64,000 nt of DNA from assembly GCA_903858015.1 (NCBI GenBank), contig CAIOGZ010000018.1, forward strand, positions 1 to 64,000, written 5' to 3'. Origin of the DNA: an uncultured cyanobacterium. Lineage in GTDB: Bacteria; Cyanobacteriota; Cyanobacteriia; PCC-6307; Cyanobiaceae. A model generated the notes under the pieces. That model was not told where the DNA came from, did no database searches, and saw only the letters and a list, made by a program, of their open reading frames with translations. This document shows, one piece after another, positions 5,114 through 7,909 of the stretch. The translations under genes were made by a program, and so were the position numbers. Numbering within the stretch: position 1 is the first letter of the stretch; each line of letters begins with the position of its first letter.

Positions 5114-6409
5114 ATGCTGAGCTCCGGAACCACGCCGAGCTCCCGCCGCCGCAGGGAGACGCGTTGGCGCCTCGTCTGGCGCCTTGGACCTGGGCTGGCC
5201 CTGGCCGCCCTGTTGCAGGGCTGCTTCGCAGCCCGTCAGACCCTGCATGTGGTGGTGGTTCCCACCGGCAGCCTCGAATGGCTGCAGCGCGATGGCAACG
5301 ACCGGATCCCGTGGACGCCGTTGCTGCAGGAATACCAGCGTCTCCATCCGGGCTTGCAAGTGCAGGTTTCGGTGCTGGATGAGGCGCACCTGGAGGAGAC
5401 CCTGCGGCGGGACCGCAGCCGGGGGCTGGGTCCCGATCTGCTGGTGCTGCGGGCACCGGTGGCGAATGCCCTACTCCGGCAGGGGCTGGTGCAGCGCCTC
5501 GATGGTCAGCCGGCCTGGCACCGCAGCCAGCCCCTGCTGGAACCGGCCCAGGTGGAGCGGGTCACCAGCGCTGCAGGGGTCGCGGGTCTGCCCGTTTACA
5601 ACCTTTTCACCCTGGCCTGCTTCGATCGCCAGGCGGTGCCCCGGCCACCGGCCAGCCTTGACGAACTGATCGGCTTGGCCGCCTCCGGCCGACCGATCGG
5701 GGTGGCGGTGGATTCGATCGGCATCTGGTGGAGTGTCGGGACCCTCGGCGCCCAGGACGCCATGGTGCCAATCCTCACCGGTAATCCGAGGGTCGCCTCC
5801 GCTTCTCCTGCCGCCGATCGTGCGGCCCTGCTGGCCTGGTTGACCTGGCTGCGTCAGTTAGCTCTCCAGAGCCGGGTGGACATCGCCAGCGGGCCACGGG
5901 AGCTGGTGGAAGGGCTCGCAAGCGGCCGCCTCAGCTGGATTCCCTGCTACAGCGCCTCCCTGGCGCACCTCGAGCGCAGCATGGGAAAACGGCTCGGGGT
6001 CGCTTCCCTCCCCGGTGGCCCGGCCGGCCCCGCCACCCCGTTCAGCACCGTGATGGTGATGGCCCTGGGTAGCGATTCCTCACCTCCCCAGCGCCGCCTG
6101 GCCCTCGAGCTCACGGAACTGGGCCTTGATCCTCTTGTGCAGAGGGAGATCACCCTGCAGAGCCTGATGGTGTTGCCGGCGAATCGCTACGTGTCGGTGC
6201 CCGTGGCCAGTTCCGGCCGTCTGGCGGCCCTCGAGCAGGCCCAGCGGCAATTTGATCAACGCTCCAGGCTGCTGTCCGCCTCCTATTCCGCGGACCGGCT
6301 CCGGCGGATGCAACCCCTGGTGGAAGACCTGCTTTGGAAGGTGATGCTGGGGGTGGTCACGCCCCAGCAGGGCACCGAAGCGTTGCTTCGCCTCAGCCCT
6401 CGCTCCTGA
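5114..6409 (+). CDS. Extracellular solute-binding lipoprotein (family 1-like)
   Basis: A 431-residue predicted lipoprotein. An Arg-rich N-terminus is followed by a hydrophobic segment and the lipobox LLQGC (Cys37). The rest resembles ABC-type family 1 solute-binding proteins: a beta strand HVVVVPTG, then W-x5-DG, PDLLVLRAP, and a C-terminal helical domain with DPLVQREITLQ. Those proteins deliver sugars or other solutes to ABC permeases, but no permease or ATPase is nearby. Its stop overlaps the start of the MscS-type channel by one base (TGATG), so the two are translationally coupled. A role as a periplasmic sensor or gating partner of the channel is only an inference. The start at ATG 5114 has an AGGAG very close upstream (one base), so the exact start is less certain. 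Confidence 0.75.
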   Translation: MLSSGTTPSSRRRRETRWRLVWRLGPGLALAALLQGCFAARQTLHVVVVPTGSLEWLQRDGNDRIPWTPLLQEYQRLHPGLQVQVSVLDEAHLEETLRRDRSRGLGPDLLVLRAPVANALLRQGLVQRLDGQPAWHRSQPLLEPAQVERVTSAAGVAGLPVYNLFTLACFDRQAVPRPPASLDELIGLAASGRPIGVAVDSIGIWWSVGTLGAQDAMVPILTGNPRVASASPAADRAALLAWLTWLRQLALQSRVDIASGPRELVEGLASGRLSWIPCYSASLAHLERSMGKRLGVASLPGGPAGPATPFSTVMVMALGSDSSPPQRRLALELTELGLDPLVQREITLQSLMVLPANRYVSVPVASSGRLAALEQAQRQFDQRSRLLSASYSADRLRRMQPLVEDLLWKVMLGVVTPQQGTEALLRLSPRS

Positions 6410-7611
6410 TGTCCACGTTCCTGTCTGAGATTCAGGGTTGGCTGGCCTTCTTAGACCGGCTGCCGGTGCTGCTGCAGCTGCTGCCGGTTGGTCTGCTTCT
6501 GCTGGGCCTGATCAAGCTGCGCCGCCTGCCTCGCCAGGGCCGTTGGGGCCGGCTGATGGACTTACCCCTGGCGGTGCCGCTGTTGGTGGGGCAGGCGCTG
6601 ATCGCCCTGGTCCTGCTGGCGCTGCAACAGCGGGTGGGCCTGGTGCTGCTTCTGGGCCAGTTCAGCCTGGCCTGGCTGCTGTTGCGTCTGGCGGAGCGCC
6701 AGGGGCTGGCCCGCTGGCTGCCGCCCGAATCCATGCAGCTTGTTAGCACCCGATTGCTGCGGCCCCTCTTCTTGCTGGTCGTGTTGCTGCAGGGGATGGA
6801 TGCCCTCGGCAGCCTGCAGGATCTGGCCGCGCTGCCATTGGGGGTGTGGTTCGGCGGCGGGATTCGTCTGGGCGATCTGTTCAGTGTGCTGGTGGTGCTC
6901 TACCTGCTGCTGGTGGGCCTGCGCCTCCCGGCCGCCGGGGTGAGCCTGCTGGTGCAGCGCGGCCTGGGCATCAGCGAGGGCAGCCGCCGCGCCCTCGATC
7001 AGATCCTCCAGTACGTGATCTTCACCCTGGGTGTGATCTGGGCGATGGGCCGGCTCGGTTTCAACCAGACGGGGGTGCTGGCGATCGCCGGCGGCCTTTC
7101 GGTGGGCCTGGGTTTTGGCATCAAGGAGGTGTTCTCCAACATCGTGAGCGGCCTCTGGCTGCTGATCGAGGGATCGGTGCGCCCCGGTGAGGTGCTGATG
7201 CATGAGGGCGAGGCCTGTGAGGTGCGCCGCCTCGGCCCGCGCGCCACCACCCTCTGGCGCGGCGCTGACAACGCCGAGGTGGTGGTGCCCAACCAGAGCT
7301 TCTTCACCACCGCCACCACCACCTACACCCGCAGTGACCGGATGCGCCGCTGCAGCCTCCAGCTCAAGATGGCCCAAAGCTGGAATCCCGGGCAGATCGT
7401 GGCCCTGCTCGAGGGCCTCGCCGCCGACCATCCCGCCGTTCTTACCGAACCTGCCCCGAAGGCGCGGCTGGTGGAGTTCGGCAGTGAACGCTATGGCTAC
7501 AAGCTCAGTTTCTCGATCGCCGATCCGCTCACGGCTGGTTCGGTAACCGCCGATCTCAGGCTGGCGATCTGCCGCCGCTTCGCCGATCTGGGGATGGATC
7601 CTCCGGCCTGA
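6409..7611 (+). CDS. MscS-family mechanosensitive ion channel
   Basis: A 400-residue membrane protein. Residues 17-180 contain about four hydrophobic segments. The conserved MscS pore helix follows (about 221-250), with GLGFG, then NIVSGLWLLIEG, and then the soluble beta domain with PNQSFF at 294-299. MscS channels open under membrane tension and release osmolytes. An upstream in-frame extension from 6334 overlaps the lipoprotein gene and is rejected: ATG 6409 overlaps its stop and fits coupling. Extra N-terminal membrane segments relative to the three of E. coli MscS are common in this superfamily and may receive input from the lipoprotein. Confidence 0.9.
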   Translation: MSTFLSEIQGWLAFLDRLPVLLQLLPVGLLLLGLIKLRRLPRQGRWGRLMDLPLAVPLLVGQALIALVLLALQQRVGLVLLLGQFSLAWLLLRLAERQGLARWLPPESMQLVSTRLLRPLFLLVVLLQGMDALGSLQDLAALPLGVWFGGGIRLGDLFSVLVVLYLLLVGLRLPAAGVSLLVQRGLGISEGSRRALDQILQYVIFTLGVIWAMGRLGFNQTGVLAIAGGLSVGLGFGIKEVFSNIVSGLWLLIEGSVRPGEVLMHEGEACEVRRLGPRATTLWRGADNAEVVVPNQSFFTTATTTYTRSDRMRRCSLQLKMAQSWNPGQIVALLEGLAADHPAVLTEPAPKARLVEFGSERYGYKLSFSIADPLTAGSVTADLRLAICRRFADLGMDPPA

Positions 7612-7681
7612 TGGGCAACGCGGCGATCAGCTCGCGCAACTCACGCTCCTGAGCCAGCCTCTGGAACACCGGCAACCAAAA

Positions 7682-7909
7682 CAGGCCCCCTACGGGCGCC
7701 CAGCCGGTGTGGAGCTGGGTGAATACAACGTTGTCGGTTTCGCCAAAGCATTGGGTTGCAAGGGCGATCGGATCGCCACTGCCGACCAGCTGGGTCCCGT
7801 TCTGCGGGAAGCCTTGCAGCAAACGCTGCCCGTGCTGATTGATATCCCGATCGCCTACTCCCAGAACCTCAGGCTGATGCAGGACGTCCATCGGGACTTC
7901 AGGCGCTGA
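7682..7909 (+). pseudogene. Remnant of a thiamine-diphosphate enzyme (acetolactate synthase-like C-terminus)
   Basis: An open stretch reading YGRPAGVELG, then FAKALGCKGDRI, then LREALQQTLPVLIDIPI, then YSQNLRLM. This is the order of the C-terminal end of catabolic acetolactate synthase (AlsS/IlvB) proteins. A full enzyme has about 550 residues; only about 75 remain. The preceding 100 bases reach the mscS stop without room for the rest, and no catalytic core is present. It is therefore a decayed fragment, likely left by recombination or a lost insertion. The reading frame is intact to TGA 7909, which suggests recent decay or a neutral remnant. Confidence 0.6.

Follow-up and report, generated by a model that had tools for sequence, protein, structure and literature searches.

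Two adjacent genes were found on the forward strand of the window, which is the whole 64,000-nucleotide stretch of DNA that was analysed. The first-pass annotation had read them as a solute-binding lipoprotein gene sharing one base with the start of an MscS-family channel gene, and the reported gene pair is a real observation. The features of the locus are as follows.

5114-6409, forward strand: binding-protein gene, 431 aa, maltose-binding-protein-like (cluster D) and predicted to be lipid-anchored, from Pfam, the structure model and structural matches.
5213-5224, forward strand: lipobox LQGC (residues 34-37), which follows a hydrophobic stretch; Q stands at -2 and Cys37 is predicted to be lipidated.
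5618-5620, forward strand: codon of Cys169, the first invariant cysteine (159/159 rows).
5945-5947, forward strand: codon of Cys278, the second invariant cysteine (159/159 rows).
6407-6411, forward strand: TGATG stop/start overlap, with TGA at 6407-6409 and ATG at 6409-6411.
6409-7611, forward strand: channel gene, 400 aa, seven predicted helices, MscS-family.
6409-6477, forward strand: channel N-terminus, predicted periplasmic helix and start of TM1 with an R17-x5-Q23 motif, from the model, the charge pattern and conservation.
7069-7170, forward strand: pore helix region, residues 221-254, glycine-rich and strongly conserved, with low model confidence.

The one-base overlap was thus as annotated, base 6409 being common to the stop codon of the binding-protein gene and the start codon of the channel gene. 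The rows are those of the family alignment, which has 160 rows, or 159 when L312 is left out; one pair of genome G126 (L219b and L300) enters twice in both sets. A divergent uroporphyrinogen decarboxylase gene lies on the 5' side of the pair, and on its 3' side lie a TPP-enzyme C-terminal fragment and an opposite-strand gene of the carboxymuconolactone decarboxylase family. The TPP-enzyme C-terminal domain fragment (7610-7906, forward strand) stands directly after the channel gene and is perhaps a decayed acetolactate-synthase-type gene. The genome carries the pair twice, on the contig of the window (C18) and on contig C32.

The binding protein matches the Pfam family SBP_bac_8 with 28.4 bits, against a cut-off of 27. 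Both lobes are modelled confidently (mean pLDDT 90.5), and the model has the two-lobed MBP-like fold of cluster D solute-binding proteins. Consistently, its structural matches include 8art over the whole length (E 2.2e-17) and GacH 3jzj (Z 35.4, rmsd 3.1, 361 residues aligned). A signal peptide and a lipobox cysteine, as judged from the sequence, predict a bacterial lipoprotein, and the annotated Cys37 is indeed located after LQG in the ORF 5114-6409. The lipobox was detected by script in 141 of the 160 family rows, and the remaining rows have either a membrane-like N-terminus (14/160) or neither feature (5/160). By eye, about 11 of these 19 rows carry a cysteine after the hydrophobic stretch, and the N-termini of five of the 19 (L209, L240, L242, L260 and L261) resemble membrane anchors. 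Membrane tethering of the binding protein seems to be nearly general across the family.

The channel matches MS_channel_2nd (34.1 bits, cut-off 20.2) and MS_channel_1st (24.4 bits, cut-off 23.1) in Pfam, and its MS_channel_3rd score of 15.3 bits is under the cut-off of 21. These matches, with fold matches to MscS and MscK, place it by its pore and beta domains in the MscS superfamily. In the model (mean pLDDT 84.3, pTM 0.55, with the pore region weaker in this single chain), a 14-residue N-terminal helix is followed by four extra membrane helices and then by the three-helix MscS core, so that the MscS family of the first-pass annotation is recovered by Pfam and the extra N-terminal helices by the model. 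The channel N-terminus is predicted to be outside, in the periplasm. The charge pattern over the 159 rows fits this topology, the net charges being +2.7, +0.8 and +1.8 for the cytoplasmic loops and -0.3, +0.3, -2.0 and +0.3 for the periplasmic segments. R17 is conserved in 159/159 rows and Q23 in 158/159; the alignment of L213 and L215 is doubtful at this position, and all other 157 rows keep both residues. The pore helix region has the lowest entropy among the channel regions. Cyclic-nucleotide-gated MscS-like channels carry a cyclic-nucleotide-binding domain, and no Pfam match to such a domain was obtained for the window channel at E up to 1.

In L213 (family f15) and L215 (family f12), the channel ORF is without TM1, and the binding-protein ORF ends in a TM1-like membrane helix with R-x2-I-x2-Q. 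Placing TM1 on the binding protein would keep the topology, because the channel N-terminus is predicted to be periplasmic. If the shift is real, both polypeptides must assemble, although the match of the terminal helix to channel profile positions 7-45 and 12-44 (2.8 and -2.0 bits) is too weak for proof. The channels of these two pairs (L213:8772-10610 and L215:8802-10634) carry a globin domain at the C-terminal end (PF00042, 2e-16 and 5.9e-17).

Besides the two cysteines, P160 and P300 of the binding protein are conserved in 159/159 rows and W206 in 158/159. Cys169 and Cys278 are both missing from three distant, unpaired binding proteins. From the strand order of the fold class, the two cysteines would presumably occupy neighbouring strands of the C-terminal lobe, and a Cys169-Cys278 disulfide is therefore plausible. 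Another reading takes the cysteine pair as the active feature of a protein that has lost ligand binding and become a structural or redox-sensing subunit of the channel. It draws on the strict conservation of both residues within the family and their absence from the three distant proteins; in addition, two related channels carry a globin domain, a hint of redox or gas input in some lineages. However, both lobes are confidently modelled and the cysteines may form only a structural disulfide, and we consider this reading very improbable.

The pairing of the two genes is close to universal among relatives. The binding protein was found in 42 of 99 related genomes with 76 matches, and 73 of the 76 are followed by the channel gene, directly downstream on the same strand. 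The three unpaired matches are two at contig edges (G024:C144 and G032:C304) and an opposite-strand fragment at a contig end (G017), and the subfamily channels without a listed partner in this set are contig-edge genes as well (G005:C193 and G036:C344). In an order-level search of 399 genomes, the binding-protein profile matched 147 genomes and the channel profile 146, in both cases spread over 19 of 44 genera. The 147 include a few weak matches, probably to ordinary ABC proteins, and no genome of the small-genome genus g17. For genomes outside the 99-genome result, 82 binding-protein matches were listed, and 78 of them adjoin a listed channel; in the remaining four (G427, G169, G437:C148 and G326) the channel was seen to be adjacent on closer look. 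When named contigs were scanned with the channel protein, 77 of the best 80 of 87 relatives had the binding protein upstream, and the other three channels are at a contig end or within about 110 bases of it. These best 80 loci include Cyanobium, Vulcanococcus, Aphanothece and Synechococcus WH7803 and WH5701, with many genomes overlapping the other sets, and all bear cyanobacterial titles save two contigs titled Bifidobacterium breve, which come from a MAG with cyanobacterial pairs.

A class-level search of 291 genomes delimited the channel subfamily sharply. It gave 30 members at E 2.6e-123 or better, and the next match was at 1.7e-72. Below that value, the matches listed start mostly at profile positions 105-162, which is the common MscS core, and a few start at positions 24-90, most of them with internal stops. 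The binding protein lies directly upstream in 30/30 of the subfamily channels, across six cyanobacterial families. Strong relatives of the binding protein beyond the family of the window were followed by the channel in 10 of 11 cases, and the eleventh ends its contig, while none of 26 distant binding proteins (of 40 listed) stood beside a channel of this subfamily. The conserved pairing whose absence in relatives was to count against the annotation is therefore present.

Nineteen genomes, selected for a missing or unlisted partner or as additional cases, contained 24 subfamily channels (E 4.4e-97 or better). The binding protein was adjacent in 22 of the 24, in pieces in G127 and G209:C17. The channel of G413 sits at a contig end. 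The channel of G425 is truncated (from profile position 160), and in place of an intact binding protein it has upstream just a short lipoprotein-like N-terminus, as though a deletion had taken out the middle (L315:2569-3527, perhaps the remnant of a deleted pair); it is the only true solitary channel found. In G401, the binding protein is followed by a channel start at the contig end. At L217:6555-7842 and L116:4555-6001 a binding-protein gene fragmented in different frames stands beside an intact channel. L134, L218 and L219 each have two complete pairs within a few kilobases, from which it seems that the pair duplicates as a unit. No one-chain fusion of binding protein and channel was noticed in the loci that were examined for the pairing. 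The pair is a real, sharply defined two-gene system that is apparently undescribed.

The coupling of the genes is tight. Stop and start overlap in 63 of 71 pairs (by 4 nt in 55 and 1 nt in 8) and in 62 of 80 further rows (4 nt in 57 and 1 nt in 5), and in most non-overlapping pairs of the latter the channel starts within about 25 nt. Co-inheritance was measured on 80 pairs from 52 genomes (66 + 14; L033, L095, L096, L099 and L104 were omitted from the 71 as having fragmentary or doubtful ORFs). The distances among binding proteins and among channels correlate at 0.91. When partners were swapped among paralogues within genomes, the mean was 0.64 and the maximum 0.81, and the observed value was reached in 0 of 2000 trials. 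The nearest neighbours of the two partners agree in only 50 of the 80 pairs. The correlation and the swap test show faithful inheritance as a unit, which by itself is not contact; linked genes can co-diverge without it. Covariation between the two proteins (159 rows, effective depth 88) gave no clear enrichment of periplasmic channel positions, with 5 observed versus 3.8 expected in the top 20, 10 versus 9.6 in the top 50, 23 versus 19.1 in the top 100 and 43 versus 38.3 in the top 200. Covariation thus gave no support for contact between binding protein and channel. This result, and the fact that gene order alone cannot show contact, would suit a simple co-expression of two osmotic-stress proteins, in which the genes stand together for shared transcription and the proteins are linked neither physically nor through a ligand. 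We judge it improbable, as it does not sit easily with the fixed order, the stop/start overlap, the faithful identity of partners among paralogues and the near lack of solitary members, nor with L213 and L215, where TM1 has apparently moved to the binding-protein gene.

The search of the genome for PF00528 gave 19 permease matches, all outside C18 and C32, so that no ABC permease was found on the whole 252 kb contig of the window. A binding protein of an ABC importer is encoded with a permease and an ATPase, which is not the arrangement in the window genome. In Synechococcus WH7803 (G184), however, one of the two pairs directly follows the genes of an ABC permease and an ATPase. The permease is a two-domain protein with PF00528, and the ATPase is ABC_tran with AAA_assoc_C. 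The gene row is as follows.

L318:3230-10084: permease, ATPase, binding protein and channel, overlapping successively, and then a second MscS gene, MSL2/3-like.

In another Synechococcus-type genome, an MscS-type gene with an MSL2/3-like C-terminal domain stands directly after a pair (L219:4550-5710). An ABC-2 exporter gene set was seen near the WH7803 pairs on the opposite strand, and similar ATPase matches occur near pairs at six other loci. A relative of the WH7803 permease was found in 5 of 49 pair-bearing genomes (E 1e-170 or better, or the fragments in G186). It adjoins a pair in two of the 49, G184 and G186, the G186 copy being broken with internal stops, and in G000, G260 and G467 it is present away from the pairs. 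The window genome holds such a relative, elsewhere than at its pairs. For 13 positioned pairs outside G184 (ten genomes, PF00528), the nearest listed permease is at least 38.7 kb away, and for the two G184 pairs it is at 1.4 kb and 10.5 kb. A separate scan of 117 loci for permeases gave no match; as its control failed (most permeases matched only themselves), the scan was discarded. The annotated lack of a nearby ABC transporter therefore stands for the contig of the window and not for the WH7803 pair or the broken copy in G186; likewise, the lipoprotein gene beside ABC permeases in close relatives, which was to speak against the annotation, occurs in 2/49 genomes and not in 47/49.

Because the WH7803 pair is coupled to permease and ATPase genes, the binding protein there may serve an importer. 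Extended to the whole family, this gives a scheme of release and recovery: the channel frees osmolytes at down-shock, and the tethered binding protein catches the solute close to the membrane for re-uptake by an ABC importer, leaving the gate untouched. The cluster D fold is typical of ABC sugar uptake, the WH7803 genes form one coupled series, a broken permease is still beside the G186 pair, and the 19 permease matches elsewhere in the window genome, the WH7803-type relative included, could be shared. An orphan sugar-binding protein is also known in marine Synechococcus, beside mreBCD (PMC8938411). Against this scheme, the WH7803-type permease adjoins a pair so rarely and is apart from the pairs in three genomes, and if the binding protein served an importer encoded far away, there would be no need for its gene to be strictly coupled to a channel gene in six families. 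Recovery is an unlikely account of the pair, though not a negligible one.

We marginally favour the view that the two genes make one functional unit, a putative tension-gated channel of MscS/MscK type with a separately made, tethered periplasmic regulator. The pairing counts, the overlaps, the distance correlation, the cluster D model, the N-out topology, the clade-specific cysteines and the L213/L215 shift were counted for it; the covariation, the 50/80 agreement of neighbours, the WH7803 ABC operon and the solitary truncated channel of G425 were counted against it. A functional partnership of binding protein and channel is well supported. The channel N-terminus is predicted to be periplasmic and therefore on the same side of the membrane as the binding protein. 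The binding protein could dock on the N-terminal helix and TM1 of the channel (R17/Q23), and it would close on a small ligand, perhaps a glycoside-type osmolyte as judged solely from the fold. Ligand occupancy would then shift the tension at which the channel opens, and the binding protein would have the role that a covalently attached periplasmic ring has in MscK and a fused binding domain in GluR0. The pairing and the stop/start overlap are observed and the fold, the tethering and the topology are predicted, whereas we infer the contact, the ligand and the gating effect alike. The pair is conserved and usually has no importer beside it, and it may therefore act as a valve with an additional response to a dissolved molecule. 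The most specific form of this proposal, a split ligand-modulated mechanosensitive channel in which a lipid- or helix-tethered receptor of MBP fold sets an MscS/MscK-type gate from the periplasm, is put forward tentatively, with its chance somewhat below even. The earlier suggestion of a ligand-sensing or ligand-gated channel is thus supported in part: the partnership stands, and ligand sensing or gating is the best reading of it, with presentation of an osmolyte to the channel, also suggested there, or its recovery being less likely.

The usual view of MscS channels is that of safety valves driven by force, and solute-binding proteins are usually assigned to importers or receptors. The coupling conserved in six cyanobacterial families suggests that binding proteins can also partner putative tension-gated channels. 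If the split channel is true, the paralogous pairs of a genome would each set a release valve to a different solute, and the gene boundary would have crossed the first membrane helix in some lineages, as if one chain had been cut variously. As the system is small, with two genes, ligand control of a mechanosensitive channel is directly testable in it. It would also bear on the control of osmolyte release in picocyanobacteria, whose MscS content varies with salinity. Freshwater, brackish and marine strains of these organisms differ in 24 MscS clusters (PMC9361551; see also PMC7522525), and some of them may be this channel family; the portions of the two papers available to us make no mention of a binding-protein partner. 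The words 'mechanosensitive' and 'MscS' are absent from the main text of a survey of picocyanobacterial binding proteins (PMC8786288), and the accessible parts of PMC7771541 and PMC8670252 hold nothing on such a pair. No description of the pair was found in the literature searched, which covers few subscription papers. The periplasmic domains of MscS homologues are described in a review as specific to closely related species (PMC4005912).

Among known systems, MscK of E. coli is the nearest solved-structure relative of the channel by sequence (4.2e-25). It is also first in the fold comparison, where it is tied with MscS (Z 14.3, rmsd 20.2 and 362 residues versus Z 13.5, rmsd 13.6 and 229 residues). 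In MscK (KefA), a peripheral amphipathic helix connects a ring of periplasmic domains with the membrane part, and both tension and external K+ are required for activation (PMC9653487). MscK is thus a precedent for gating by force plus ligand with a periplasmic ring. However, MscK has 11 helices and a large periplasmic domain, whereas the window channel has seven predicted helices without that domain and scores 118.6 bits with the MscK equivalog model, far below the cut-off of 991; its periplasmic partner is a separate binding protein with a fold other than that of the MscK domain. GluR0 of Synechocystis is a second precedent, as a binding-protein-type ligand domain controls a cyanobacterial channel acting in cell-volume control (PMC13099474). 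GluR0 is one fused chain with a K+ channel pore, whereas the window pair is two chains with an MscS-type pore. The binding proteins of cluster D ABC importers, such as MalE and GacH, share the whole-length fold and the lipobox, but the window binding protein differs from them in its invariant cysteine pair, its coupling to a channel gene and the lack of an adjacent permease. The pair therefore belongs neither with ABC importers, given that no permease adjoins it in the window genome and with WH7803 as the exception, nor with MscK, given the score. It is a variant of the MscS-type channel with a separately encoded binding-protein partner.
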